Assembly: GCA_900316005.1 (NCBI GenBank)
Contig: ONBH01000011.1
Span: forward strand, 1-64,000
DNA length: 64,000 nt
DNA from: an uncultured Bacteroidales bacterium
GTDB lineage: Bacteria; Bacteroidota; Bacteroidia; Bacteroidales; Paludibacteraceae
Direction: 5' to 3'
This document shows positions 1 to 14,547 of the stretch, piece after piece. The position numbers and the translations under genes are program-made. Every line of letters begins with the position of its first letter. Within the stretch, counting starts at the first letter, position 1. The notes beneath the pieces are model-generated. The model did not search any database. It was not told the DNA's origin and saw nothing but the letters and a program-made list of their open reading frames with translations.

Positions 1-27
1 GTTCTTTATCCATATGCATTTAAAATT

Positions 28-72
28 AGGATTTGTAATCGGCTGCAAAATTACAACTTTCCTACAAATCCT
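28..72. repeat. 10-bp inverted repeat at the left edge
   Basis: AGGATTTGTA at 28-37 is the exact reverse complement of TACAAATCCT at 63-72. The arms flank a possible leftward promoter (46-77), so this could be an operator for a gene lying beyond the window. Function is inferred only from position. Confidence 0.4.
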
Positions 73-77
73 ACAAT
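46..77 (-). promoter_or_regulatory. Possible leftward Bacteroidales promoter
   Basis: Read on the minus strand, TAATTTTG (46-53) matches the -7 element TAnnTTTG and ATTG (74-77) is a 3/4 match to the -33 TTTG, 20 bp apart. It would drive a gene beyond the left edge. It is weaker than the other promoters called here. Confidence 0.4.
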
Positions 78-152
78 ATGCATTTTAATGGATGGTTACG
101 ATAAAGCGACATTTTTGTTTAAATACATTTTCCATAATAAGTTGATTTTAAG

Positions 153-314
153 TTAATATATTTTGTTATGTTTAGCCTTGCGCGTATACTTCTTCTTATT
201 CTTATACATGTTGGAATGACATATAGGTTTTCCGTATAAAGCAATTTCAGCTTCTCTGCTCTGCTTTCTCGCAGCCTTTAAGGCAAGTAATATGTCATTG
301 TTTTTGTTAGTCAT
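153..314 (-). CDS. Small basic hypothetical protein (53 aa)
   Basis: Encodes a 53-residue, strongly basic peptide with a helical N-terminal part (residues 7-27, rich in Ala, Leu, Lys and Glu) followed by the segment LYGKP and a Lys/Arg/Tyr-rich tail. The start at 314 is preferred over in-frame ATGs at 344 and 332, because a good promoter at 342-373 would begin transcription near 335, downstream of or too close to those codons. It resembles short uncharacterised Bacteroidales proteins with an ALKAARK...SREAEIALYGKP pattern, but that is from memory. No catalytic motif, signal peptide or membrane segment is visible. It is separated from the WYL operon by the terminator at 416-460, so it is an independent unit. 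Function unknown. Confidence 0.5.
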   Translation of the reverse strand: MTNKNNDILLALKAARKQSREAEIALYGKPICHSNMYKNKKKYTRKAKHNKIY

Positions 315-341
315 ATTCGTTCCATTTTTCATTTGATGCTG

Positions 342-373
342 CAAAAGTACTGCTTTATTATCACATGGCCAAA
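342..373 (-). promoter_or_regulatory. Promoter of the 53-aa ORF
   Basis: On the minus strand TTTG (370-373) and TACTTTTG (342-349) are separated by exactly 20 bp, a full match to the Bacteroidales -33/-7 consensus. Predicted transcription start is near 335. Confidence 0.65.
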
Positions 374-415
374 TTTTCGTAGGTTCACTTTAATAAAGAA
401 CCAATAATAGCATAA

Positions 416-460
416 AAAAGGCGATTATTTGGCTGTTTTGGCCACAAATAATCGCCTTTT
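416..460. terminator. Strong bidirectional terminator ending the defence operon
   Basis: Perfect 16-bp inverted repeat, AAAAGGCGATTATTTG (416-431) against its complement (445-460), with a 13-nt loop. It has A/T tracts on both sides, so it can work in both directions. It lies 36 bp past the WYL gene stop on the minus strand. Confidence 0.85.
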
Positions 461-495
461 ATAAAAAAATCGACACGTATCAGTTATTGAAAATG

Positions 496-1680
496 CTATT
501 GCGTTTTAGGAACCAATTCGTACAGCTCTGCCATACGTTTTATCACTTCGTCTCGGAAATAACGTAAAAGATCCGGTTCACCCATTATTTGTACTCCATG
601 GCCAAAGGATAACACTTTGCCAACGAATTCGTAGTTCAGTTCAACATGTAACTCAAATTCACCATATTCTCCATCAGTATACTGTCCATATTCAGTAACT
701 ACAACTTGAGAAGGATGGAGTTTTTTTGTTTGAATTAAATGGTACACATTATAATTTAGAGCGCGTAGGCGCGCCGTATACACGCGCGCATCGTTTCTGT
801 TTTGTGGATTATTAAGATTCTGATGCGTTACACCGATAATATTAGCGAAATAAGTGGAGTATCTATTTGCAGGCGCCTTACGATAAGATTCCGCAGTAAC
901 AACTATGGGCGTAGTTTGAATGCGATCTATAGCAATGTTACAAAACGGTGCATCAAATTCAGCCCCAAAGGAGGTTGTCTCCCCAAATAATTGCCATCGT
1001 CCATTAAATTCACGTAAAAATTGCGGATGGAATACGATGTCGGAATAATATTGCCCCTTTAGGTTACAATAATCAAATTGGAGAACCTCTTGATGGATAA
1101 TAGCCTCATATAGTCTCGGTAACAAATTGAGATTACGTAACTCGGGATTAACATCTGCTTTGATACATTGAGTAGAACGTCGTTCCTTGATATCTAACAG
1201 GTCTTTCGTATTACGAAGAAAATAATCGGTCCAAACTCTCGGGATCAAGCCATCTAAGTCTTGGCAGAACTGAACATATCGCTTGATACTCTGAATGGCT
1301 TCTGCATCTCGTAGTTCTTTTAATGGATCATTGCCGAAACGCAAGTCATAGCGTATAGCCTTGCCCTTTTGTTTTCCATCTTCAATAATGCATTCCGGAT
1401 GTCCCGTTTTTGAACGAAGCATATCTACTACCAATACCCATGTCTTTTTTAGAGTATTGTTTAAGGGACGAGTTCGGTCATCCGTGGAATAAGATTTTTC
1501 AGGCCATTCACGGCGGTATCCTTTGATATCCGGATGTAATTCAATATAGTTCGGCCATATCGCTTTTAATACTTCTGCGTATCGCACCCAATCGCCCCCC
1601 ATGAGACGAGCATATAATTCACGGAAGCAAAGCGACATGTCTGTCCGACCGGAGAAATAATCTTCACGTTTACGTGGCAT
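496..1680 (-). CDS. WYL-domain transcriptional regulator
   Basis: A 394-residue protein: an N-terminal winged-helix-like region (about 1-110), a helical middle, a WYL domain at about 185-270, and a C-terminal extension ending at a FRDEVIKRMAELY-like helix. The WYL core shows the F-x-Y strand (LQFDYCN), the HPQFL strand and GRWQLFG, in place of the usual GRWYLIG, so the namesake WYL triad is modified. WYL regulators bind ligands, often nucleic acids or nucleotides, and commonly control phage-defence loci (CapW/BrxR type). Here it is the last gene of the minus-strand operon, 43 bp after the ATPase-HEPN gene and before a strong terminator, as expected for an autoregulator. The region is AT-rich. 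DNA target and ligand are not known; palindromes at 7449-7472 and 9531-9542 are candidate sites. Confidence 0.8.
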   Translation of the reverse strand: MPRKREDYFSGRTDMSLCFRELYARLMGGDWVRYAEVLKAIWPNYIELHPDIKGYRREWPEKSYSTDDRTRPLNNTLKKTWVLVVDMLRSKTGHPECIIEDGKQKGKAIRYDLRFGNDPLKELRDAEAIQSIKRYVQFCQDLDGLIPRVWTDYFLRNTKDLLDIKERRSTQCIKADVNPELRNLNLLPRLYEAIIHQEVLQFDYCNLKGQYYSDIVFHPQFLREFNGRWQLFGETTSFGAEFDAPFCNIAIDRIQTTPIVVTAESYRKAPANRYSTYFANIIGVTHQNLNNPQNRNDARVYTARLRALNYNVYHLIQTKKLHPSQVVVTEYGQYTDGEYGEFELHVELNYEFVGKVLSFGHGVQIMGEPDLLRYFRDEVIKRMAELYELVPKTQ

Positions 1681-1723
1681 AATTATTATAATTTTTATGC
1701 GTGCACTTCCTCTTAAATATCGA

Positions 1724-3295
1724 TTATTTAGCCTCCCATTCAGAGATGGTCCTGATAATTATTTTGCAGTATTCTGTAGCTTTGAGAATTTGGTCTTGAG
1801 AAATGAATTCACGATTATTATGTGCCATGGGATTTCGAATATCAGCTAAGAAGTTGAATTCTTCTGCCCAGTCTTTCTTTTGCCCAGTAAATACTTTACC
1901 GAACCAATTCCAATCTATAGCCATAAAAACATTATACATGTCGCGAGTTAAAGTATAGTCAATTAGATTTGAACTGGCACTTGGGAATATGCGTTTACTT
2001 TTTTCTCTAGTATCCTTTAACCGATTAAATTGCTCTAGCCAATTCGAGTCTCTAAATCCGATATTATTCTCATATTTAGCGACAATCTCTGTTTCCCAAT
2101 CGGCGTGGAATGTCTCTTTTATATATATTTTGATTAGCTCGCGCATCTTCTTTTCGGTTTCAGTCCAGAGAGGCCAATATTCAACATTCGTTATGAAATT
2201 TTGATCGATTAGTTGAGTAAAATAATCCGAGAAGCAAATATATGAACCTTGCTCTATTTGTGCACCGACTATCCGTCCAAGTACATTTAGTTTGCTTTCT
2301 TTGTCAACTATTCTAATAAATTCGTATTTTAGTAATTTTTCTTCATCAATTGTAGAAACATCATAGACTGGACCAAGTATTAATTGAATAGCTTTGTCAA
2401 ATATTTTTTCGTATTCTAATGTGTTAATTATAGATTTTAATTGATTCCATAACTCTAATCGTATCTCTGCGACAATGTCGTTTGAATTATCTTCAAGATT
2501 ATATGTATTTGTTCGATAGCAATAATCGTTAAACAAATCCAACAAAAATGGGTGCCTACCGACATAGTATTCAACTTTATCTTTATATGATGATGTAAAA
2601 TTGTACGATGCCACTCTATTCCAATATAATCTAATATCGTCATCATCAAACATTCCTAATCTCAAATCCATGAATGTCCCAGAGAAGTCCGAAATAGCGC
2701 CATCCTTTGCTTCTATTTCCTTTATTGTTTTTCTTGAGCATGTCACAAGACATAATTTAGTATCTGGATTATATGAAAGTTCTCTTAGAAGCTGAAATTC
2801 TGCCACATCAAAAATCTTTCGAACACTATCAAACTCATCAAGGATGTATATGATTTTATATCCAAATCTTTTTACTATTTGGAAAAATCTATAGATGGAA
2901 AGTTCAAAAGTATCATCATCGAGCGTTGCCAATTCCATAACTAAGGAATCAGCATATTTGAAATATTTTTCGTCGCTAAATGACATTTTCATCTCATCAT
3001 GCAACTTCATAATTAGTAGAGAAAAAAAACTTCTAGCGTCTTTATAACTGCCACATTGAAAAAATATCGGTATGCATTTCTTTGCTTTTAATTCGTTTTC
3101 CTTTAACATTATTCCCTGCCAAGCAAGACTCGATTTTCCAATACGGGGCAATCCAATAATTGCCAAATTTCCATAATTATCTCCCAAAACGCGCTGCGTG
3201 ATGGTTTCAAGGGCTTTTTTACGCCCCACAAATCTTTGACCTGATACTATAGAGCCAAAGTCTGCAAAAGGATTATTTAATGTTTCAGTAGCCAT
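1724..3295 (-). CDS. STAND-like ATPase with C-terminal HEPN-type RX4H domain
   Basis: A 523-residue cytosolic ATPase. After an N-terminal NPF...GQRFVGR entry motif (8-25) comes Walker A GLPRIGKSS (48-56), Walker B IIYILDEFD (148-156) and the HPFLLDLFNDY helix (about 248-258) typical of archaeal-ATPase/STAND proteins. The C-terminal ~110 residues are helical and end with RNPMAH at 487-492, which fits the RX4-6H motif of HEPN ribonucleases, in a context resembling Swt1-type HEPN domains. The start codon lies inside the 3' end of the upstream gene (19-bp overlap), so the two are translationally coupled and probably partners. I infer a sensor ATPase that triggers an RNase; neither activity is shown by sequence alone. 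The alternative is a HEPN domain acting only in assembly. Confidence 0.7.
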   Translation of the reverse strand: MATETLNNPFADFGSIVSGQRFVGRKKALETITQRVLGDNYGNLAIIGLPRIGKSSLAWQGIMLKENELKAKKCIPIFFQCGSYKDARSFFSLLIMKLHDEMKMSFSDEKYFKYADSLVMELATLDDDTFELSIYRFFQIVKRFGYKIIYILDEFDSVRKIFDVAEFQLLRELSYNPDTKLCLVTCSRKTIKEIEAKDGAISDFSGTFMDLRLGMFDDDDIRLYWNRVASYNFTSSYKDKVEYYVGRHPFLLDLFNDYCYRTNTYNLEDNSNDIVAEIRLELWNQLKSIINTLEYEKIFDKAIQLILGPVYDVSTIDEEKLLKYEFIRIVDKESKLNVLGRIVGAQIEQGSYICFSDYFTQLIDQNFITNVEYWPLWTETEKKMRELIKIYIKETFHADWETEIVAKYENNIGFRDSNWLEQFNRLKDTREKSKRIFPSASSNLIDYTLTRDMYNVFMAIDWNWFGKVFTGQKKDWAEEFNFLADIRNPMAHNNREFISQDQILKATEYCKIIIRTISEWEAK

Positions 3296-6200
3296 TCTTG
3301 GAACAATTTTACTTGAATTTTATAATTGTTATCACTTTTAGTCTCGAGAACTTCGCGATTACATAAATCGTTAATTATCGCAGTTTCTTTATTCTTGTCG
3401 ACAAAAACATCAATATCAGCACGATTGCAGTAGCCAATGTTTTTAGCTCGTAGTGCAATTTGACGCAATACAGAAAGAACATCTTCTTCCGCATATTCCT
3501 GTAAATCGTCAGATTCTTCTCCGGCACGAATAAGATTGTCAAACTTATCTTCCTCAAGAGCATCCGATCCCTCAATAAATGAACGAGCGACTTCGTTTAC
3601 ATCCGCTTCAGTTACACTTATAGATTTGTTATTATTCATAAAGTCAACCAATCGAGAGCAGAATATTTGGATGTAATATGGATTACGTGAAGTCCATTCA
3701 ATAATCCGTGATACTGCATCACCAATGTATCTCGAATGACCATTCTCATCAAGAATAGGTTTCTCGATTAATGCTCTAGCCGGCTCTTCTTTTAGATATG
3801 TCAGCCGCATGTCTTGTATAACGCCAAAAGCATTGCGAGCGTAATCTTCTTTTTTAAACGAAGGTACAACATCCTGCCCGACAAGGACAACCGAGAATTG
3901 CGCTCGTTCATTTTGTGTTATGGCCTTCCATTGTTTCATTATAGACGGAGATATATTACCTTTCTTAATTCCAGAATATAGATATGTAAACTCATCAATC
4001 ATAACGACCAGATTCTTATCTTCCCATCCTTGTGTTTGCTTACATAATAATTTGAAATTTATCATATACTTTGAGAATGTGTTTAAGGGATTTTCTTCAT
4101 CTTCTTCCTTAAAGTCTTTAACGGTTGGAATATCAAAATTGGGAATCTGCTTTCCATCCAGTGCCATAAAGTATAGTTCTTGTTTAATTGAATATAGTAT
4201 TTTATAATAAAAGGATGCTTCATTCAAATTTTTAAGAATCTCTCCCAAACTAAAAAACACACAAAACGTTTTCCCTGTATTAAGAAGACTTTGTTTAAGA
4301 TGCAACATAACAGAAGATTTTCCACTCCGCTTTTGACCGTAGATAATAATTTGTTTTGATGGAGATTTAATGATTGCATCTACAATATTCTCTATTTCTG
4401 TTTCACGGCCATAAAACATTTTTGAATTAAGAGGTACTGGACCGCCATCCGCAAGTGGAGCATACGGATTTTCAATAGGAGTAAATTCTTCTTGAGAGTA
4501 TAGTTTTAATGATAATTGATTTGAAATTTGTTTTATATCTCCTCCGCTTTTATAATTGCACAGAATTGTAACAGCAGCAGCCTTCTGTTGGATCACATTT
4601 TCTTCGACTTCTAATTGAAGTTTAAAGATATGAGATTCACCACCTTCGATTGCATTATATAGGATATCGTCAGATTTAATTTGTTTAATTCCGTTATTCT
4701 CATCAATATAAAGGGACACTTCTTTGATTGGAGAGGAATCCTTATGATTTGACAATTCAACTTGGATGTTTACTAGTCCATTAGCATCAACAACAGTTTG
4801 TTCAGAAAGGAGCTTGATAGAAATTTTAGGCACACTCATACGAACAACTTCACTGAATGATTTTTCTAGAAGACATTCTATTTTATCAAGCATTGGAAGC
4901 AATTCTTCATATGATAGTTTTGTAGGAGCAGTTTTAATATCGGCTACAAGTTGATTGATTTGACCATATGCATTATTTATATTTGTTTCCTTATTTCTAT
5001 ATCCTGAGGATTTTAAATAAGTGCCGATTGCTGGCGCAATATTGCTTATTATATAATTAAGATGATTTATGTCAAGCCAGCACATCCATTCTTTATTGAT
5101 GTTATCTAAAGACAATAGTTGTCGATATAAATCATCAAGATTTGAAGTATTTGAAACGTTTCGAATGGTTGCCACAACCTTTTGGTTATAAAGTAATAAT
5201 TTTTCTCGAGCACTATTCCACGCATCAGTAAACGTTTCTTTGGTTGGCTTTTGATTAACCGAAATTCCAATTGTATTCAATGCCCGTAATGCTTTCGTTT
5301 GATACTCTAAATTAGAATATAATAAAGAAGATATGTTTGCAGCAATCGCTCTGTTGTATATACACATGTACAAAATATTAATCCACCATTTAATATCCAC
5401 GTTTGTTCCAATAGAATGTTTTAGAGCAGTATTTACAGGCACATGCTGATTTGTTGCTTGTAATAAACCGTTATAATCATAGATTTGTGTTAATAAATAT
5501 ATGGCCACATTCTGAGCATTATTATCGTAGTTTTCTTCCAGGGAGAAGGCCTCATTGTAATAAAAGCGAATAACATCTAAGGGACTATTGTCCACTATAT
5601 GTGTTGTGGCCATATCGATACAATATCTTGCTAAAACAGTTCTTAATTGCGATGTGTTTTCCGATTCTACATCTTGCATAAGTTTAGCCTCCGTCAATAG
5701 GTACGGAGCCCTATCTTTTGCTCTACCTCCTAATTTTTCAATGATACTTCTAATACCACTTAGTGTTTTTTCATCAAACTGCCCAGAATCCTTTATTTTA
5801 ACACCCGCATATTCTGTATATTCTTCCAATGTTTGTTGAATATACTTACTAAAGCCACCACTCGTTAATGACTCAAAATGCGTAGCAGATATAACTTCTT
5901 GTATATTTGCTTTATTTTCGGATTCAATTGCAGCTTTCAGTTGTAAGGCCCAAATGTTCTCAGGATCAAGTTCTAACGCAGTCTCAACTGCCTCAAGTGC
6001 TTTCACAATATCTTCAATTTGAACATAAACAGCAGCCATTTTGCGCAACAGTTGAATGCGTTTATTATTATCTCGTTTTATTTCTTGTTCTTCTAATAAT
6101 TCTCTTGCCACTTCAAGGTATTTGTTATAATCTTGAATAGCAGAATATAGATTTTCGAGATAATAAAGCGTGGATATATTACGCGGCAAATCTTTACGGT

Positions 6201-7353
6201 GCTCTAAAAGGAGCGTTACTACGTCTTCTCTATAGTTATTGGAGTTTTCACCTCCTTGCTTATAGAGTTGTGCGTACAACATGCCCAAATCTTTAATTGA
6301 AGCCTCAAGCTTTTCTCCTGCCTTGATTGCTTGCGTATAGTATTCAATGGCTTGGGAATATTTTTTGGCAAGGTGACATTCTTTGGCTTGATTATATAAG
6401 TTAGAATCTCGTTTTGTTTTAGAGGGAAAATTTCTAGGTTTTATACCAATATGAGTGTTTTTAATAGTTTCTTTTAACTCATTTGCAGCAAAATTCTCCG
6501 GGTATTCATCAAGGATGTGGTCTAACACGCGAACAGCGTGTCTAAATTCTTCTATATTTATGAGTTTGTTGGCTAATTGTATTAACTCTTTAACCGTATT
6601 TGGACGATGTATTGTTATTGCCGAATTTCCACGCTCACTTCCTTGTATTGAATATATAACATGCATATGTAGCATAGATTGAACAGTTTTATCTATGCTA
6701 CTATCAATTATTTGGTTAAAGGAGAAAAAAACATCTTTTCCAGTCTTGGCGTCTCTTATAAAGCCATAATTTCGATTTGGGCAGACCAATTTTACTTCTC
6801 CAATAGCAGGTACGAATTTGTTGTTTTGGACAATATGTTCGTCTTCCACCAATACTCGAAGTTCTCCTAAATCTTTAAAAGAAACAGTAGATTTATTGTT
6901 CTTAGTAGGGGTCATAGTTATTTTTTGCGCTATGCCAGCCGAATTTTTCTTTGATGCTCCTGAAATAGCATCCAAATCAATTTTACCTACGATTTTAACT
7001 CCTGGTAATTTTGGAGAAGCAATAGAATCAGTTATTGGAGTGCTTTGGGATTTAATAGTAACTGACGTTTCGGCGCCGACTCCGTTTTCTATGTGAGTAT
7101 CTACAACTTCCGTTTCTTCGACAATCTCTTTAGTGTCATTAATTGTCTGTTCAATTATAGGCGTCACATTAGACCCTATCGTAGGCGGATTTGTTATTTC
7201 AGAATCCTTCTTGACAATAATTGTTTGACCAGTCCTAATCGCAATCAGATCTGGCGTAATTTTAACAATAGAACCCGAATATTTCGACTCTCCACATTCT
7301 ATGGAGATATAATCACCCGCCTGAACAAAGTCTATGATAAAATCAAGATACAT
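3277..7353 (-). CDS. Cold-shock-like / TPR / STAND-type ATPase, 1358 aa
   Basis: A very large multidomain protein. Residues ~8-52 look like a small beta-barrel; ~55-160 is low-complexity; ~185-250 is a cold-shock/OB-like domain (NYGFIRD...KDVFFSFNQI, the pattern of RNA- or ssDNA-binding CSDs). TPR-like helical pairs run ~255-480, then a long helical region to ~845. A beta-rich Ig-like stretch (~850-965) leads to NPYAPL...FYGRETEI and a P-loop ATPase: Walker A GQKRSGKSS (~1003-1011), Walker B LVVMIDEFTYL (~1113-1123), STAND helix NPYYIQIFCSRL (~1224) and a C-terminal winged-helix-like tail. It has its own promoter (7412-7443) and overlaps the ATPase-HEPN gene. No signal peptide or membrane segment. 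I infer a nucleic-acid-sensing oligomerising NTPase; I do not recognise the full architecture. Confidence 0.7.
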   Translation of the reverse strand: MYLDFIIDFVQAGDYISIECGESKYSGSIVKITPDLIAIRTGQTIIVKKDSEITNPPTIGSNVTPIIEQTINDTKEIVEETEVVDTHIENGVGAETSVTIKSQSTPITDSIASPKLPGVKIVGKIDLDAISGASKKNSAGIAQKITMTPTKNNKSTVSFKDLGELRVLVEDEHIVQNNKFVPAIGEVKLVCPNRNYGFIRDAKTGKDVFFSFNQIIDSSIDKTVQSMLHMHVIYSIQGSERGNSAITIHRPNTVKELIQLANKLINIEEFRHAVRVLDHILDEYPENFAANELKETIKNTHIGIKPRNFPSKTKRDSNLYNQAKECHLAKKYSQAIEYYTQAIKAGEKLEASIKDLGMLYAQLYKQGGENSNNYREDVVTLLLEHRKDLPRNISTLYYLENLYSAIQDYNKYLEVARELLEEQEIKRDNNKRIQLLRKMAAVYVQIEDIVKALEAVETALELDPENIWALQLKAAIESENKANIQEVISATHFESLTSGGFSKYIQQTLEEYTEYAGVKIKDSGQFDEKTLSGIRSIIEKLGGRAKDRAPYLLTEAKLMQDVESENTSQLRTVLARYCIDMATTHIVDNSPLDVIRFYYNEAFSLEENYDNNAQNVAIYLLTQIYDYNGLLQATNQHVPVNTALKHSIGTNVDIKWWINILYMCIYNRAIAANISSLLYSNLEYQTKALRALNTIGISVNQKPTKETFTDAWNSAREKLLLYNQKVVATIRNVSNTSNLDDLYRQLLSLDNINKEWMCWLDINHLNYIISNIAPAIGTYLKSSGYRNKETNINNAYGQINQLVADIKTAPTKLSYEELLPMLDKIECLLEKSFSEVVRMSVPKISIKLLSEQTVVDANGLVNIQVELSNHKDSSPIKEVSLYIDENNGIKQIKSDDILYNAIEGGESHIFKLQLEVEENVIQQKAAAVTILCNYKSGGDIKQISNQLSLKLYSQEEFTPIENPYAPLADGGPVPLNSKMFYGRETEIENIVDAIIKSPSKQIIIYGQKRSGKSSVMLHLKQSLLNTGKTFCVFFSLGEILKNLNEASFYYKILYSIKQELYFMALDGKQIPNFDIPTVKDFKEEDEENPLNTFSKYMINFKLLCKQTQGWEDKNLVVMIDEFTYLYSGIKKGNISPSIMKQWKAITQNERAQFSVVLVGQDVVPSFKKEDYARNAFGVIQDMRLTYLKEEPARALIEKPILDENGHSRYIGDAVSRIIEWTSRNPYYIQIFCSRLVDFMNNNKSISVTEADVNEVARSFIEGSDALEEDKFDNLIRAGEESDDLQEYAEEDVLSVLRQIALRAKNIGYCNRADIDVFVDKNKETAIINDLCNREVLETKSDNNYKIQVKLFQEWLLKH

Positions 7354-7411
7354 AACTCTTATTATGGATTTAAAGTATTTGCATTCAACTTTGACATATT
7401 TAAATTTGGTG

Positions 7412-7443
7412 CAAAGATACTACAAATTTTTGACTTGTGCAAA
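7412..7443 (-). promoter_or_regulatory. Internal promoter of the defence operon
   Basis: Minus-strand TTTG (7440-7443), 20-bp spacer and TATCTTTG (7412-7419): a perfect Bacteroidales promoter. It would start a transcript near 7405, about 50 nt before the 1358-aa protein, and allows that gene, the ATPase-HEPN gene and the WYL gene to be expressed apart from the helicase. Confidence 0.75.
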
Positions 7444-7448
7444 TTTTT

Positions 7449-7472
7449 GTATCATTTTTCAAATTTTGATAC
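7449..7472. promoter_or_regulatory. Candidate operator next to the internal promoter
   Basis: GTATCA (7449-7454) and TGATAC (7467-7472) form an inverted repeat just upstream of the -33 element. The 10-mer ATTTTGATAC (7463-7472) recurs at 9817-9826, upstream of the other operon promoter. Assignment to the WYL regulator is a guess. Confidence 0.3.
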
Positions 7473-7545
7473 GGTTAGTTCTGTTTTTTCAGTTACAATT
7501 TTACCTAAACAGCCGGCATATTGAGTGCAGCCAAGCAAATCCTTC

Positions 7546-9375
7546 TTACAGAGGCTGAACTAGAGGATGCTCTAGCAAGTTTATTAACGAATTAAACTTG
7601 TCCGGATGCTCTGATTTCCCAATAGAAGATAAAATACAGGATTTATTACCTACCATAAAAAGTTTACAACGAGCACGGGAGACTGCCACATTAATCTTAT
7701 TTGCATTGTATAAGAAATCAACAAGGTCAGATGCATAATCACAATTACCAGCAGTAAATGAGAAAAATATTATATCGCGCTCTTGTCCTTGCATGCGATC
7801 TATTGTCTCAACAACAGGAATTTCATCCATTAAGGCATATAATTTTCTGCGAATCAAGGCACATTGTGCACGAAACGGGGCTATGACAGCTATTTGATCA
7901 GTAGAGACATGATGCCTATTAATATATTCATCTATAAGACCGGCGATATATTCCGCTTCTTCTTCCGATGAGCATGTTCCCATATGCAAAATATCCTTAA
8001 AAAAGACCGATTGACTATTTATCAACAAATACTCATCGTCATGTTGCGCTAAAGTGCGATTAGGAAATTTAGATTGTAGAGTTCCATCATAGAAAGAGTC
8101 TGATACCAATTGACAAATCTGAGCATTCATGCGATAAGACTGATCTAGTGTCACGCAGTTATAATCGCGATATAAAGCTTGAAATATAGATTGCTGTAGA
8201 AACTCCGGATGTTCTTTGTACGAACATATAGGAGGTAATTGCTTATGATCACCTACGAGAACAACATAATCAGCTTTTTGCGTTGCCATTAGAGCAGTAG
8301 GTATCGTCATTTGCCCCGCTTCATCAATTATAAGAACATCTGCTTCTAAACCTGACGCACGCGTATATAAAGTTTGGGGCGTAACTCCTATTATCCACCG
8401 GTTAATATTACTCTCACCTTCTTTTGCAAATACATTTACATTGGGATAAGGAAGGTTTTGGACACTAATCTCTTCACCCTTAAACTCATAGTTCAAACCA
8501 TCTGTTTGGTATTCTTGCCCTATTTTGAAAACTGGCAGATGTAGAGTGTTTATTGGGCTCTGGTTCTCTTCTGATGGCGTTACTTTATACTTTTTAGGGT
8601 CAAGGTCATATCTCTGTGCAATAGACTTATGAATCTTACATAACACGTTATTGATCGCCATGTGATTAGGGCTACTGATTAACACCCTATTTTGATACAT
8701 TAACAGCAAGATAGCAATTATAGCTATAACAAAAGTTTTTCCGGTCCCCGGAGGACCTTGTATTAGTGAGTATTCTTGATTAGAAACAGCCTCTATAATA
8801 GCTCTGTGTTGAGATGAGGTCAATTCTACATTTAAACTTTCACATAATTCTAAAAGCAAACTCTCTAATTGTGGAAATTCTCCAAATTTCAAGCTGGGAA
8901 TTTCGTTAATAACACTAAGCCATTGTTCTTTCCGCTCATTATTCGAAACGATAAAACTATTATTAATATCACTACTATCAAAATACCATGAATCAATGGT
9001 ATACTCTGAGTTTGTATCAATTATCGACGAATTTACGACCTTAGCTAAAATCACATAGTTACTACCTATCTCCACAATGGGACTGCCCATGCCTCTTACC
9101 TTTTCCCAACCTATAGGTGCATTCTTGGTCAATAGAACATAATCTCCAACCTTAAAGTCAGAAATATTCTTGTCGAAAGTAAAACGAAATAAGTGCCCTT
9201 TATTTCTATTATATTCACTAAATTTCACATCAAAACGCAAACCGGCTATGCACTTGCGTTTTTTAACACGCTCCTCTACGGGTAGCATATAATATTCGTT
9301 TATATCCTTCCTCTTTTGTTCATTCTCATTCAAGAGAAATGAATAGATATCTTCTGTAGAAATATATTTGTCCAT
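7546..9375 (-). CDS. SF1 helicase, UPF1/DNA2-like (AAA_11/AAA_12)
   Basis: A 609-residue superfamily 1 helicase with a full motif set: Walker A GPPGTGKT (207-214), Walker B LIIDEAGQ (348-355), motif III VGDHKQLPP (374-382), motif IV QSYRM (412-416), motif V TIDRMQGQE (524-532) and motif VI VAVSRAR (563-569). The N-terminal region (~45-135) is beta-rich, like the RNA-contacting 1B barrel of UPF1/IGHMBP2. Such enzymes unwind RNA or DNA 5' to 3' using ATP. It has no fused nuclease or kinase domain, unlike Mokosh-type or Zorya-type proteins as I know them. It is the first large gene of the minus-strand operon; a 192-bp gap with an internal promoter separates it from the next gene. The exact system role is inferred from neighbours. 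Confidence 0.85.
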   Translation of the reverse strand: MDKYISTEDIYSFLLNENEQKRKDINEYYMLPVEERVKKRKCIAGLRFDVKFSEYNRNKGHLFRFTFDKNISDFKVGDYVLLTKNAPIGWEKVRGMGSPIVEIGSNYVILAKVVNSSIIDTNSEYTIDSWYFDSSDINNSFIVSNNERKEQWLSVINEIPSLKFGEFPQLESLLLELCESLNVELTSSQHRAIIEAVSNQEYSLIQGPPGTGKTFVIAIIAILLLMYQNRVLISSPNHMAINNVLCKIHKSIAQRYDLDPKKYKVTPSEENQSPINTLHLPVFKIGQEYQTDGLNYEFKGEEISVQNLPYPNVNVFAKEGESNINRWIIGVTPQTLYTRASGLEADVLIIDEAGQMTIPTALMATQKADYVVLVGDHKQLPPICSYKEHPEFLQQSIFQALYRDYNCVTLDQSYRMNAQICQLVSDSFYDGTLQSKFPNRTLAQHDDEYLLINSQSVFFKDILHMGTCSSEEEAEYIAGLIDEYINRHHVSTDQIAVIAPFRAQCALIRRKLYALMDEIPVVETIDRMQGQERDIIFFSFTAGNCDYASDLVDFLYNANKINVAVSRARCKLFMVGNKSCILSSIGKSEHPDKFNSLINLLEHPLVQPL

Positions 9376-9530
9376 TACGATAATGAGTTATTCTTGTTAA
9401 TAATCGATGATAAGTCAAAGTTGTTAAATTTTCTATTTCCTTATAATAAATAAAGGCCTATCCAAACCATCACGATATTCGGAGAAACATAGATACTGCC
9501 TACTCTTTATCGGATTGTCTTATCTCACGT

Positions 9531-9542
9531 TCGTTCGAACGA
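9531..9542. promoter_or_regulatory. 12-bp perfect palindrome in the helicase leader
   Basis: TCGTTCGAACGA is a perfect palindrome between the 42-codon ORF and the helicase start. It may be an operator or a remnant; no recognisable promoter lies beside it. Confidence 0.3.
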
Positions 9543-9591
9543 TTATTTCAACACGCTCAACAATTCGCCTGATTAGTTCATTTTTTCAATC

Positions 9592-9720
9592 TCATCGTAA
9601 GCTTAATTCTCTTTCGCGCTTATCGACAGCTGCCATCCATTCTTGCTTGAGGTTCATAGTCGCCAATAAGGCAGCTCTGAACTCCGCATCAGAATACTGT
9701 TGAAATCGAGCCTGTTCCAT
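9592..9720 (-). pseudogene. 42-codon ORF, possible relic of a longer coiled-coil protein
   Basis: The first reading frame after the operon promoter (9754-9785). It encodes 42 charged, helical residues starting MEQARFQQYSDAEFRAAL and stops at TGA (9592-9594). In the same frame, one codon past a second TGA, coding-like sequence continues (NELIRRIVERVEIIV, to about 9525). A shifted frame between them reads DEIEKMN. This pattern suggests a ~70-residue helical protein broken by small indels; a short functional leader peptide is also possible. There is no homologue I can name. It is followed by a 216-bp gap to the helicase. Confidence 0.4.
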
Positions 9721-9753
9721 AGTGCTATTGGGTTAAATTTCCATTATCGCCTG

Positions 9754-9785
9754 CAAAATTACAAAAAAAAATTCATATATGCAAA
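9754..9785 (-). promoter_or_regulatory. Main promoter of the defence operon
   Basis: Minus-strand TTTG (9782-9785), 20-bp spacer, TAATTTTG (9754-9761). It is the only consensus promoter seen upstream of the helicase and would transcribe the 42-codon ORF first, with a start near 9747. Confidence 0.7.
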
Positions 9786-10309
9786 AAAATATCACCAAAT
9801 TTGGCAATTTTAGCATATTTTGATACATTATGGTTCGATATTTGGTTCTCTTGCTTCCGGATGCAAAAAAATTCGCAGATATCTTGCGAAATCTGCGAAA
9901 TCTGTATCGTTTCTAAGATTAAATGTGTATTGAAATTGATATTTATATGCAAATAAAACGTCAAAATTTGCATAAAAAATCTTACCAAACTATCTTATTT
10001 TGCAATTTTCTGCAATTTTAACCGTCTTATTTTGCATATTTCGCAACTCTAAACTGCACAAAATCGGAATTTCTCATTTTCTAAACTGCATAAAAATACT
10101 ATTGCAACAAGAGGAAATACTGTGGTTCTTCGGGCGAATTACCGAGGTTCATCGAACCAATCTCGCATCATACTAATACCTATAATATACTATGTATATT
10201 ATCCTGTGATTTTGACACTCTTAACAGCAACCGGTTCTCACAATACGTCGGGAACCGGAGCCAAATGGTATTATTTTATCTTACTTCCGACATAAGATGC
10301 TCTAAAACA
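9786..10309. other. AT-rich intergenic region with short direct repeats
   Basis: No convincing gene between the two divergent promoters. TCTTATTTTGCA occurs at 9993-10004 and 10025-10036, and TCTAAACTGCA at 10048-10058 and 10080-10090; both pairs are offset by 32 bp. CCGGTTC (10231-10237) and GAACCGG (10252-10258) form a stem-loop without a T-run. These may be remains of a degenerate repeat or protein-binding sites. Confidence 0.45.
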
Positions 10310-10341
10310 TTTGTGTATGTCAAAAAAAAGCAGTACCTTTG
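10310..10341 (+). promoter_or_regulatory. Promoter of the secreted adhesin-like gene
   Basis: TTTG (10310-10313), 20-bp spacer, TACCTTTG (10334-10341): a perfect Bacteroidales promoter. It gives a leader of about 65 nt before the ATG at 10413. Confidence 0.8.
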
Positions 10342-10412
10342 CACGCTTTTTGATAATATACCATAAAAAAAATGCAATATAATATCATCCAAAACACAAA
10401 AAAAAACAACGA

Positions 10413-13382
10413 ATGAGAAAACTTTTTTATCTGCTTGTAGCGGCGATCTGCTGCACGAGCATGCAGGCTCAGCTAATCGATGAGAGTTTCGAAGGAGCCC
10501 AGTTCCCACCCAACGGATGGACCAGTATTGACAATGACCAGTATTCGCTATGGCGACGCATTTCGAAAGATGACAATCCGACGCTGGACGTCTATGATGG
10601 CAGAGCGTGCGCTGTTATACCCGGTTCGTACGGCACCACCAACTATCTGATCACGCCCTGTCTGCGTCCCCAGACCGGCGAGACGCTGCATTTTGCCTCG
10701 CGCATCAAAGAGTACGCCTCGCAAGGCATGCTCAAGATTGAGGTTTCCACGACCGGAACAGACGCTGCTTCGTTTACCGAGATTGCTTCGTATTCGACAT
10801 CCTCCAGAGCAGAAGGTCATTTGCCGAAGAGCGAATGGCAGGTATTTGACGTGGACCTGAGTGCATACATTGGTCAGCGCATCTTCGTGGCATTCCACCA
10901 GGTGGGCGAAGCGGATCAGATTTACCTGGACAAAGTGCATGGCATCACGCTGGCAGGTGACGCTTCGTGCGAAGCTCCCCACAGCCTGACGGTCAGCAAC
11001 CTGACTTCGTCGGGCGCTACCATCACCTGGACCGGTGATGCAACGCAATACCAGTATATCTGCCTGCCCGCAGACCAGACTCCGGACTGGAGTGCTGCTA
11101 CGACCATCAGCACCAACACGGTAACGCTGAGCGGCCTGTTTGAGGCTACGGCATACGCCTTCTACGTACGCTCTTACTGCTCGGCAGCGGAACAGAGTCT
11201 TGCGCCCAAAACCGTGTTTAAGACACCCTGCACGCCGATGACTATTCCGTACGTGCAGGACTTCTATCGTCACCCCACAGGTGTCGTAGAGCCCGAATGC
11301 TGGACGGTAGCCTCCCCCACTCCGCAGGTATGGGTAGTAAGCACCAAGACCTACGACGATGAAGGAACCGGTACACTGGTGCGCGCTTCGGAGCATATCT
11401 ACGCCTCCGGTGGTGCAGCAGGCACGGAACAGACCTTCGCCATGCCGGCTATGGCAGCACGGTTGGACACCTTAGAGGTAGCCTTCGACTACAAGCACAG
11501 CTATATCGGCGAGCAATATGGCGTATTAGCCATAGGCTATATGACCAATCCGGCGGACGCCAACACCTTCGTAGCCATAGACACGCTGCCGCAGGTGGAC
11601 ACCATGACCCATGTCATCTGCCCGCTGACAGCCATGCCGGCTGACGCACCCTTCATAGCCTTCCGCTTTGCAGGTGGCACCAGCAGTTTCAACGGCGTAT
11701 CGATGGATAACTTCGTCGTAGCACCTATCGGACACTCAGACGAGTTCACACCCGAAGAAATCATCGACGATGCCAACGCATATCTATTAGGCCAGACCTA
11801 CTGCGAGGCACAAGTATCATGGTATTCGTACAATGCCGAGGCCTTTGCTATCGGTCTGTTTGATGCCACCAGACAACAGCTGATAGCAGGTATCGTCGTC
11901 ACCACCGGCGAGTGCGACCGCTTCGCCTACGAAGACGGCATCACCTTCTCGGAATACGAAGACCCCGACAACCATTACTACTGCTCCACCAAGTGGATAC
12001 TGAATGTGGACGAGTCAGGCCTGTCTAAAGGTGCGGCATGGGACAGCTGCGTCATCAATATAGGTACTGCGCGCACGCCTGCGTTGGGTCTCAAACCCGG
12101 CAGTTACCAAGTGCAGATTTATGCCTACGACGTTGTCAACAACGAGATGGATACACTCTTGGGTACCGTTCCGTTCACGCTCAGCGAGAAGAAAGTGACC
12201 AACCTGCAAGCCACGCTATCGACAGACTTGACCAAAGCTACCATCACCTGGGTAGAGCCGGAGTTGGCAAACGGCGAGCGACTCTATGTCAGCGTTCGCG
12301 CAGGCGAGACGGTTGCTTACGACAACTACGAGACCACCGATATCGCCACCTCGCCGCTGGTAGTGGATGTACTGAACGGCAAGTCGTATCAAGTGAGCGT
12401 CGTGGTTATTGACCGCCAGAAGAACCCGCTGGGCGAAGAGGTCAGCTGCGCGTTTACCGTAGGCACGAATAACTACGAGCCGCGCAATCTGCATGCCGAA
12501 GTATTTGGTGGCGACAACGTGACCTTCTCATGGGAGGCAACGACCCAAGCCGACTTCTACGAGCTGGCTCTCTACTGCGACGGCGCTTATTACACGACGC
12601 TGAATGTTCGTTCGATTCCCAAGACGACCACCATGCCGCAGGATGGCACCTGGTCATGGACCGTACAGGCCTTTACCAAAGGCACCAACGGCAAGTACTT
12701 CCCCGCCAGCGAAATAGTCCGCGGTAATGACTTTGTATCACAAGGTGCTCCGATTCCGGATGATGCCATCAAACTGGATGTATGGGGTATGGAAGCTGCC
12801 TATCTGGATAAGGCAAGCGGTTATTATCAGGAGGGCAAGCACGGCTGGATGGTGATGTTCGCCACGGGCGAGGAAGGTTCGGTCGGCTACCCGATGCCGT
12901 GGTTCCTGATTTACACGGAGAAAGAGAGTGCTATCTCAGGCGTATATAACGTATCACGCGAGAACATCGATTTGGAGAGCACCTATCTCAATACCAACGG
13001 CACGCAGGCGGGCTGTATCATGGCGACCGATGCCGAACTGAGACTGCAGTTCGACGGCTACGATGAGGAGATGGCCGAAGCCGGCTACCGCTACGCGTAC
13101 TACACCGGTAAGTTCCGCCTGGTAGGCGAAGATGGCAAGACATATGTAGGCAACTTCCTGGAGCTGTTCTGCAACTCGTACAACTGGTCCACCTACTCAT
13201 CCAGTGTGCGCGACCACAAAGGTATGTGGGATGAAGACCCCACGCAGCAACCGCCTCAAGACGGTTTGGAGGATGTTGTGCTTGACAGCGATGATGCTAT
13301 CCGCAAGATGATTCTCAACGGACAGTTGTACATCATCCGCGGCAAAGCCATCTACAACATCCAGGGTCAGCAGGTACGATAA
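10413..13382 (+). CDS. Secreted multidomain adhesin-like protein (cleaved-adhesin and FN3 modules)
   Basis: A 989-residue exported protein. A signal peptide (1-19, MRKLFYLLVAA...MQAQ) is followed by a jelly-roll module (~22-170: IDESFEGAQFPPNGW, then a YLITPCL strand) of the cleaved-adhesin/choice-of-anchor type, an FN3 domain (~180-265), a second jelly-roll (~275-430) and further FN3-like domains (~590-790). The last ~30 residues (NGQLYIIRGKAIYNIQGQQVR) match the short C-terminal tail common on Bacteroidales secreted proteins (NG..YI...G..YN..GQ.V). Related modules bind carbohydrate or act in surface attachment, for example in Porphyromonas gingipains. No protease catalytic site is visible. 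It is a single-gene unit with its own promoter and terminator. Substrate unknown. Confidence 0.75.
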   Translation: MRKLFYLLVAAICCTSMQAQLIDESFEGAQFPPNGWTSIDNDQYSLWRRISKDDNPTLDVYDGRACAVIPGSYGTTNYLITPCLRPQTGETLHFASRIKEYASQGMLKIEVSTTGTDAASFTEIASYSTSSRAEGHLPKSEWQVFDVDLSAYIGQRIFVAFHQVGEADQIYLDKVHGITLAGDASCEAPHSLTVSNLTSSGATITWTGDATQYQYICLPADQTPDWSAATTISTNTVTLSGLFEATAYAFYVRSYCSAAEQSLAPKTVFKTPCTPMTIPYVQDFYRHPTGVVEPECWTVASPTPQVWVVSTKTYDDEGTGTLVRASEHIYASGGAAGTEQTFAMPAMAARLDTLEVAFDYKHSYIGEQYGVLAIGYMTNPADANTFVAIDTLPQVDTMTHVICPLTAMPADAPFIAFRFAGGTSSFNGVSMDNFVVAPIGHSDEFTPEEIIDDANAYLLGQTYCEAQVSWYSYNAEAFAIGLFDATRQQLIAGIVVTTGECDRFAYEDGITFSEYEDPDNHYYCSTKWILNVDESGLSKGAAWDSCVINIGTARTPALGLKPGSYQVQIYAYDVVNNEMDTLLGTVPFTLSEKKVTNLQATLSTDLTKATITWVEPELANGERLYVSVRAGETVAYDNYETTDIATSPLVVDVLNGKSYQVSVVVIDRQKNPLGEEVSCAFTVGTNNYEPRNLHAEVFGGDNVTFSWEATTQADFYELALYCDGAYYTTLNVRSIPKTTTMPQDGTWSWTVQAFTKGTNGKYFPASEIVRGNDFVSQGAPIPDDAIKLDVWGMEAAYLDKASGYYQEGKHGWMVMFATGEEGSVGYPMPWFLIYTEKESAISGVYNVSRENIDLESTYLNTNGTQAGCIMATDAELRLQFDGYDEEMAEAGYRYAYYTGKFRLVGEDGKTYVGNFLELFCNSYNWSTYSSSVRDHKGMWDEDPTQQPPQDGLEDVVLDSDDAIRKMILNGQLYIIRGKAIYNIQGQQVR

Positions 13383-13408
13383 GGCTTTTTAAGCGACACA
13401 ATTCCCTT

Positions 13409-13443
13409 CCCCACTCGGCACAGAAACCGGGTGGGGATTTTTT
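13409..13443 (+). terminator. Rho-independent terminator of the adhesin-like gene
   Basis: CCCCACTCGG (13409-13418) pairs with CCGGGTGGGG (13427-13436) with one mismatch, followed by a T-run to 13443. It lies 27 bp past the stop codon. Confidence 0.85.
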
Positions 13444-13505
13444 ACGGACATACTGCCATTTTCGGAATCTTTTTGCAAAAGGGCTGCACCCCTATTTTGC
13501 CGTGT

Positions 13506-13571
13506 ATGAGGGCATACTTATGCGAACATAAATACCCTCATTCCCGACAAAATATAGAGTATATACTCTAT
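13506..13571. promoter_or_regulatory. Operator candidates of the AbiE-type locus
   Basis: An 18-bp perfect palindrome, ATAGAGTATATACTCTAT (13554-13571), lies 23 bp upstream of the -33 element. Further upstream ATGAGGG (13506-13512) and CCCTCAT (13535-13541) form another inverted repeat. Toxin-antitoxin operons of the AbiE type are autoregulated through inverted repeats, so these are plausible binding sites. Confidence 0.5.
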
Positions 13572-13594
13572 TTTTGCAAAAAAGGTTCCGAAAA

Positions 13595-13626
13595 TTTGCG
13601 TATGTGCAATTTTTGTTGTAAATTTG
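13595..13626 (+). promoter_or_regulatory. Promoter of the AbiE-type operon
   Basis: TTTG (13595-13598), 20-bp spacer, TAAATTTG (13619-13626). The 49-bp stretch 13590-13638 is 45/49 identical, without gaps, to 33803-33851 in front of recQ. Confidence 0.8.
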
Positions 13627-13644
13627 CAGGCTGAATTGAAATTT

Positions 13645-13950
13645 ATGCCAAGCGAGACATACATAGCACGGCTGTCACCCTATTTATTTTGGGACATGGA
13701 CCGCCAACGGGTGGACGCGGAACGCAACTCGCGCCACTTGATTCAACGTGTATTGGAATATGGCAATCTGGATGATTGGCGGCTTACGCGCGACTATTAC
13801 GGAATGAACCGTGTGGTTAGTGAATGCCAACAACTCCGTAGCCTCAATCCCAAGTCGCTGGCTTTTATTTGCGCAGTATCCGACACTAAAAAAGAAGACT
13901 ACAGATGTTATCACTTCAGACAATCCTTCCCAACACTCTGGAACTCTTAA
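13645..13950 (+). CDS. DUF6922-like protein, probable antitoxin partner of AbiEii
   Basis: A 101-residue cytosolic protein beginning MPSETYIARLSPYLFWDMD. The pattern LSPYLFWD(M/V)D...RHLIQRVLEYG...DW.......YG...V........RSLNPKSL matches my memory of the DUF6922 family, which is common in Bacteroidota directly upstream of AbiEii/AbiGii nucleotidyltransferases. The ATG at 13645 is chosen because the predicted transcription start is near 13633 and an earlier TTG (13624) lies inside the promoter. The 3' end overlaps the toxin gene by 46 bp, implying translational coupling. I infer the antitoxin or regulatory role from pairing; a DNA-binding domain is not obvious. Confidence 0.7.
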   Translation: MPSETYIARLSPYLFWDMDRQRVDAERNSRHLIQRVLEYGNLDDWRLTRDYYGMNRVVSECQQLRSLNPKSLAFICAVSDTKKEDYRCYHFRQSFPTLWNS

Positions 13951-14522
13951 AGACACTATCCGCCAGAGAAGAAATGCAGCAGATGAGATTGGTCGGAGGA
14001 ACGGCTCTCGCGCTGCAATACGGACATCGTCAGTCTGTAGATTTGGATTTTTTCGGCAAGATGCCATCGGATCAAGAGACAATCGCTGATATGCTGGACG
14101 GACTCGGGACCTATACGACACTAAACCGTTCGTCCCACATTTGGCAAATTGTAGTAAACAGTATCAAGGTGGACTTTGTGGACTACAGCCGATACCAATG
14201 GATAGACCAGCCGATTTGCGAACAAGGTGTTGTACTCGCCTCTGATAAAGATATCGCTGCAATGAAAATCAATGCGATTGAAGGGCGAGGCAGCAAAAAA
14301 GACTTTATCGACATATACCTGCTTTTGCAACACTATAGTTTGGCAGAAATTTTGAACTTTTACAAACAGAAGTATCCTGATTTTTCAGAATACCGAGCAT
14401 TGCGAAGTCTGGTTTATTTTGAAGACGCCGAACCGCAAGAAATGCCGACTATGTTTATTGCTGACACCTGGGATTCAATGAAGGAGTGCATCGTAGAAGC
14501 GGTAAAGCAATACCAAAAATAG
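13905..14522 (+). CDS. AbiEii/AbiGii-type nucleotidyltransferase toxin
   Basis: A 205-residue member of the DNA polymerase-beta-like nucleotidyltransferase fold used by AbiEii toxins. It shows the glycine pair and metal-binding acidic pair, GGTALALQYGHR...VDLDF (G31, G32, D46, D48), and the downstream basic motif GSKKDFIDIYLLL (~125-137), with an upstream DIAAMKINAI helix. AbiE systems give phage resistance by abortive infection; related enzymes modify tRNA or other RNAs with nucleotides. It is co-transcribed with, and overlaps, the DUF6922-like gene, and lies 25 bp upstream of pheT. Whether an accessory toxin-antitoxin pair sitting on the pheT transcription unit affects pheT expression is unknown. 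Length is at the short end for the family but complete motifs are present. Confidence 0.8.
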   Translation: MLSLQTILPNTLELLKTLSAREEMQQMRLVGGTALALQYGHRQSVDLDFFGKMPSDQETIADMLDGLGTYTTLNRSSHIWQIVVNSIKVDFVDYSRYQWIDQPICEQGVVLASDKDIAAMKINAIEGRGSKKDFIDIYLLLQHYSLAEILNFYKQKYPDFSEYRALRSLVYFEDAEPQEMPTMFIADTWDSMKECIVEAVKQYQK

Positions 14523-14547
14523 AAAGAATATAATTTGAACAAAAGAT

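Follow-up and report, generated by a model that had tools for sequence, protein, structure and literature searches.

AVAST (Avs) systems respond to an infection cue through a STAND ATPase that carries helical repeats, and act through a nuclease effector. A survey of HEPN domains lists Swt1-like HEPN domains fused to STAND-ATPase, TPR and S1 modules, with Npun_F6454, MED222_16016 and Desac_1927 as examples (Anantharaman et al. 2013, PMC3710099, Table 1). Type IV CoCoNuT systems combine an NTPase carrying cold-shock domains (CSDs) with HEPN and helicase partners, and are predicted to target RNA (PMC11090510). Here we analyze an operon that encodes an SF1 helicase, a STAND ATPase, an ATPase-HEPN protein and a WYL-domain protein, and compare it with these and other described systems.

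Layout and transcription signals of the locus

The window, that is, the whole 64-kb stretch of DNA analyzed, starts at the end of contig C12 in a 2.27-Mb genome of 56 contigs. Four minus-strand ORFs, all present and intact, lie at 496-1680, 1724-3295, 3277-7353 and 7546-9375 and are read in the order helicase, STAND, ATPase-HEPN, WYL. The STAND gene shares 19 bases with the HEPN gene, which is 43 bases away from the WYL gene, and the helicase-to-STAND gap measures 192 bases. G+C content is 32-39% across the AT-rich first 10 kb and 44-61% from 10.3 kb on, a contrast drawn inside the window that agrees with the preliminary description of four large minus-strand genes more AT-rich than their surroundings. 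That description also placed promoters at 9754-9785, ahead of the helicase gene, and at 7412-7443, between the helicase and STAND genes. Both sites, on the minus strand, match the Bacteroidota -33/-7 pattern exactly (TTTG-N20-TAnnTTTG for the first), a pattern with 13 occurrences in the window where 0.67 would be expected, a count that none of 100 shuffles reached. Because the second promoter lies between the helicase and STAND genes, the STAND, HEPN and WYL genes can be transcribed without the helicase, and these three probably also form a transcription unit of their own. The strong terminator earlier proposed past the WYL gene, at 416-460, fared less evenly: a hairpin with flanking T/A runs, listed without a strand, is visible in the sequence and is a likely terminator, but is missing from the list produced by a simple terminator scan. 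No Rfam family was found in positions 1-14600.

Several smaller features surround the operon. A short minus-strand ORF (MEQARFQQYSDAEFRAALLATMNLKQEWMAAVDKRERELSLR, about 9594-9722) follows the first promoter and precedes the helicase gene; it could be a leader or what is left of a gene. In the stretch from the WYL gene to the contig end, a basic 53-aa ORF (MTNKNNDILLALKAARKQ..., 156-314, minus strand) has a Bacteroidota promoter at 342-373. On the plus strand, a Cleaved_Adhesin/fn3 protein (10413-13382) adjoins the island, and an AbiE-like pair at 13595-14522, about 4 kb from the operon, consists of a DUF6922 protein and an AbiEii nucleotidyltransferase (2.8e-14) and has a Bacteroidota promoter of its own at 13595-13626.

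Two homologous ATPases and their variable partners

The STAND protein (3277-7353, minus strand, 1358 aa) is a P-loop ATPase of the ATPase_2/nSTAND type. Its P-loop, GQKRSGKS, occupies residues 1006-1013, and the motifs GQ.R.GKSS and IDEF are invariant in its homologues. Pfam returns ATPase_2 above cut-off (2.8e-8) and TPRs, with the CSD just below cut-off (3.5e-5). The predicted domain order is Sm-like (residues 1 to about 48), CSD (185-249), TPR (254-491), helical solenoid (503-839), beta domain (844 to about 950) and an ATPase with a winged-helix-like end (957-1358). One helix and five strands are predicted for the first 48 or so residues (local pLDDT about 56-70), and in homologues this segment matches Hfq_1/Hfq-related, RimP-SH3 and LSM families weakly but consistently, from which we infer that the modeled N-terminal domain is Sm-like. 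The CSD and Sm-like assignments are each weak singly; together with the TPRs they are predicted to be the RNA-binding parts of the protein. A fold search with this front returned TPR superhelices only, with the Sm-like and solenoid parts outside its matches, and a sequence search against solved structures returned only TPR proteins and generic P-loop enzymes. Where the preliminary description cast both the helicase and the cold-shock/TPR protein as sensors, we retain the Sm-like/CSD/TPR front as the likely sensor, probably of RNA as far as its domains indicate, and assign the helicase an accessory place. Relatives of this front occur in other settings. A stand-alone 489-aa protein (L018, 6828-8297) resembles only the Sm-CSD-TPR front (27%), and a protein at 331-4254 of L050 has an Sm-like front in common with the STAND protein of L015 (52% over 66 aa), a different middle, a diverged STAND domain and no HEPN partner that we could see.

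The adjoining 523-aa protein (1724-3295, minus strand), the predicted effector, joins an ATPase (P-loop GLPRIGKS, residues 48-55) to a C-terminal Swt1-like HEPN domain. The match to HEPN_Swt1 (PF18731) reaches 3.2e-6 and 27.8 bits against a cut-off of 27.5, whereas that to ATPase_2 is weak. The RX4-6H catalytic motif reads RNPMAH at residues 487-492, and R487, N488 and H492 are invariant in ten homologues. In an AlphaFold2 model the ATPase part matches ORC/Cdc6 and RdrA folds, with the HEPN domain hardly covered; the same model found nothing below 1e-3 among viral structures. Pfam and motif evidence thus bear out the earlier reading of a helicase, two P-loop ATPases, an RX4H motif and a WYL domain in this operon. 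The two ATPases align along their whole length (hhalign 97.6%, 4.6e-12) and are therefore homologous, which suggests that the pair arose by an old duplication.

A scan of 84,980 genomes with the STAND protein, together with order, class and family samples, gave 17 loci to be counted (the window, L015, L019-L031, L048 and L049; L016 and L023 are identical in sequence). Inspection of these loci reveals an ATPase partner adjacent and on the same strand in 16 of the 17, the exception being Okeania L024. The pair spans six phyla (Bacteroidota, Chloroflexota, Poribacteria, Actinomycetota, Pseudomonadota and a UASB270 bacterium). Thirteen of the 16 partners carry HEPN with an intact RX4H motif (e.g. 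RNPLAH, RNPEMH, RNGIAH, RNPMVH), the partner in L027, HEPN included, having been located by tblastn. Partner-ATPase distances mirror STAND-ATPase distances (r = 0.95, 15 pairs, 0 of 5000 permutations), a correlation that shows joint inheritance of the pair, not interaction. That is to say, judged by its conservation, the unit is the pair of STAND and ATPase-HEPN genes and not the set of four. The earlier proposal that all four genes form one system is rejected, since only the pair recurs outside this genome.

HEPN is absent from the partners in L023, L026 and L028, of which the last two are from related Streptomyces. These two share a caspase gene and a small partner just downstream (L026 4739-6243 and 13130-14601; L028 12920-14376), 73-84% identical between them. 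The Streptomyces locus that keeps HEPN, L027, has no match to this caspase. Across these three Streptomyces there is no more than a hint of effector exchange.

The helicase (7546-9375, minus strand, 609 aa) is an SF1 enzyme of UPF1/IGHMBP2 type with intact GPPGTGKT, DEAGQ, GDHKQLPP and VAVSRA motifs and matches to AAA_12 (1.3e-34), AAA_11 (2e-25) and TIGR00376 (5e-53, below model cut-off). Four loci have a helicase next to the pair or its operon, and these helicases are of two kinds: UPF1-like in the window and G809, RecD/PIF1-like in L015 and L019. G809 belongs to the family of the window genome, and its genes run STAND, ATPase-HEPN, a 2037-aa S1-Sacsin protein, helicase. Another neighbor is seen in G1086, where an NYN nuclease with the effector-associated domain EAD11 lies just upstream of the pair and a SIR2_2 gene further on. 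The nearest family homologue of the window helicase (40%) is interrupted and stands alone in G828. From these occurrences the helicase appears to be an accessory to the pair, variable in kind and often absent.

The WYL-domain protein (496-1680, minus strand, 394 aa; Pfam WYL 1.7e-4, at cut-off; PADLOC WYL 5.4e-13), a shared accessory or regulator, is related to proteins encoded in many genomes of the family, with 30-41% identity to the closest. These closest relatives keep company with defense genes: one in L090 lies beside an AbiP2 reverse transcriptase (2.7e-119), a retron-type reverse transcriptase and PDC-M29A, one in L087 beside a PDC-M28-like protein and one in L088 beside a methylase/HATPase hybrid. 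Because the defense genes differ from one relative to the next, the WYL family marks defense loci without belonging to one system. In Bacteroidales it marks several kinds of such loci, which offers a handle for finding more. Two further observations concern these loci. All three contain a PIF1-like helicase and two small proteins that resemble each other (L087 10682-13750, L088 1255-4327, L090 3082-6255), beside a WYL gene and differing defense-like cargo, in what looks like a defense hotspot. The N6-methylase-like/HATPase hybrid of L088 (5102-8780) lies beside a receiver-like protein and two WYL genes and matches no recognized system. Of the co-occurrence expected at the outset, then, adjacency of the pair is upheld, while the helicase is often absent and the WYL gene goes with several defense operons.

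Distribution, proposed function and alternatives

The STAND gene is rare. Among 393 genomes of the order, 4 have it above threshold, its own included, and one of these four matches in the CSD-TPR part alone. The family sample yields 2 in 150, and the 12 sampled congeners none. In the four congeners that were read, the island is missing from the segment upstream of pheT. A HEPN-seeded search of the phylum at E 1e-20 returned only its own genome. No homologue was detected in viral contigs searched with STAND and HEPN alignments and with single proteins, or in 50,697 phage records searched with one STAND query, and plasmids gave one distant STAND match and none for the HEPN protein. The best reading of the low G+C, the absence from congeners and the patchy distribution is that the operon is a horizontally acquired, accessory element. 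Its surroundings vary from genome to genome. In L015 phage genes (portal, structural and tail) lie within a few genes of the operon, a TraI-type gene is near the pair in L031 and OLD-TOPRIM and caspases are near it in Streptomyces, while in L020, L022, L025, L029 and L030 the neighbors are ordinary housekeeping genes.

Distant relatives match the ATPases only, and weakly; even so, their tandem ATPases are linked to a known defense enzyme, type I restriction-modification (R-M). On an Acinetobacter plasmid (L043), one operon holds a WYL gene, HsdR, a fusion of HsdM, HsdS and STAND, and an ATPase partner that showed no HEPN domain; Minicystis L038 is similar in gene order. The fusion itself (L043, 6301-10272) is a single chain of HsdM methylase, HsdS specificity and STAND ATPase.

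We favor anti-phage defense of the abortive-infection type, acting through HEPN RNase activation by a tandem-ATPase, RNA-sensing switch, as the reasonably probable explanation, which leaves the defense operon first proposed as the best reading of the locus. Gene content, domains, conservation of the pair and its motifs, ATPase homology, patchy distribution and the company of the WYL family, all computed here, are the basis of a model in which the RNA trigger, co-assembly, RNase activity, anti-phage function and the helicase and WYL roles are proposed; its steps after domain assignment draw on the known behavior of STAND and HEPN families. At the core, two homologous ATPases of the STAND/ORC type would form a two-subunit switch. 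The large subunit would use its RNA-binding front (Sm-like, CSD, TPR/solenoid) to detect an infection-specific RNA or RNA-protein state, and ATP-driven co-assembly with the small ATPase would bring the HEPN domains together as a dimer. Once activated, this dimer may cleave tRNA, rRNA or mRNA and so halt both cell and phage. The helicase could remodel nucleic acid or present it to the sensor, and the WYL protein may act as a ligand-responsive regulator of the locus. We count for defense the RNA-binding theme (CSD, Sm-like, S1-Sacsin and SF1 helicase in G809, NYN-EAD11 in G1086), the AbiEii toxin-antitoxin genes near the window operon, the WYL relatives beside AbiP2 and other reverse transcriptases, and the distant type I R-M fusions with WYL. 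Against it we count the housekeeping neighbors at some loci, the lack of phage or viral copies in the collections searched and the three partners that miss HEPN.

Of the alternatives, the likeliest is a chance stack in an acquired island, where a helicase on its own, the two ATPase genes and a WYL gene simply came to adjoin. The separate promoter of the STAND, HEPN and WYL genes, the solitary helicase homologue in G828 and the occurrence of WYL with other systems favor such a stack, yet the genes share a strand and tight spacing, the pair again has a helicase beside it in L015, L019 and L048, and WYL is also present in L043; we regard it as somewhat unlikely. It concerns the make-up of the operon and can be compatible with a defense function of the pair. 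Improbable in our judgment is a switch for stress or RNA quality control, in which stalled or cold-structured RNA is sensed and host RNA is trimmed by HEPN in the manner of a chromosomal toxin module. In its favor, the CSD, the Sm-like and S1 partners, the UPF1-like helicases and an RNase-E neighbor all belong to RNA metabolism, and some loci have housekeeping neighbors, but the gene is too rare and patchy within the order and among congeners to sit easily with that role, it occurs in the company of phage genes and R-M, and its WYL belongs to a defense-associated family. Self-protection of a phage or mobile element by superinfection exclusion or addiction is very unlikely: the copy near phage genes in L015 and the TraI-type gene in L031 point that way, whereas no copies were found in the phage and viral collections searched and most copies show no phage genes nearby.

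Within the defense reading, we tentatively suggest, with rather more doubt than confidence, a widespread but rare class of immune switch that carries sensor and executioner on two paralogous STAND ATPases, with both ends exchangeable. The sensor would be Sm-CSD-TPR or, in the distant relatives, HsdM-HsdS, and the executioner HEPN or, in two Streptomyces, an adjoining caspase. If the favored defense model is correct, the mostly one-chain Avs-type sensors would be joined by an immune switch of two STAND subunits with an RNA-sensing front, and cold-shock and Sm-like domains would be tied to infection sensing. At about 5.6 kb, the pair is small enough for direct cloning.

Comparison with described systems

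In keeping with the preliminary description, which recognized no named system, Pfam, NCBIfam and PADLOC 2023 gave no specific match for the set or the pair, and searches of the PMC literature found no description; later or other publications may include one. On the effector side the only PADLOC match is PDC-M34B (3.8e-10 for the L022 protein, 0.0097 for that of the window). Of the STAND domain, the best PADLOC match is Mad8 of MADS (1.5e-8), confined to the generic ATPase part. The window operon contains no other Mad gene and no methylase; the distant R-M-fused relative in L043 resembles MADS in having a methylase and a WYL gene. RADAR is approached through RdrA (8hr8), whose fold matches the ATPase of the HEPN protein at the general ORC/STAND level (Z 13.0, 273 residues, rmsd 5.1), and the RdrB deaminase is missing here. 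The 609-aa helicase lacks the full-length architecture of Mokosh MkoA (models of 1112-1607 positions): the helicase part alone matches (346-602 against 793-1098 of 1112), and the rest is missing. CoCoNuT systems are distinguished by a McrB-type GTPase and McrC, and no McrB or McrC domain was found in the four operon proteins.

AVAST shares the STAND ATPase with this locus and differs in that the sensor front is here Sm/CSD/TPR and the effector lies on a second ATPase; no Avs model is among the matches up to E 0.1 in the 2023 PADLOC library. The Swt1-like HEPN fusions of PMC3710099 belong to this HEPN family and likewise contain a STAND ATPase, TPRs and RNA-binding OB-fold parts, and RNA-level defense has already been proposed for them. 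As listed in that survey these parts are fusions, whereas here the sensor parts and HEPN are carried on two homologous ATPases encoded side by side. If the three listed proteins prove to be single-chain relatives, the novelty would lie in the split into two homologous ATPases. The parts are known, and their arrangement is apparently undescribed.
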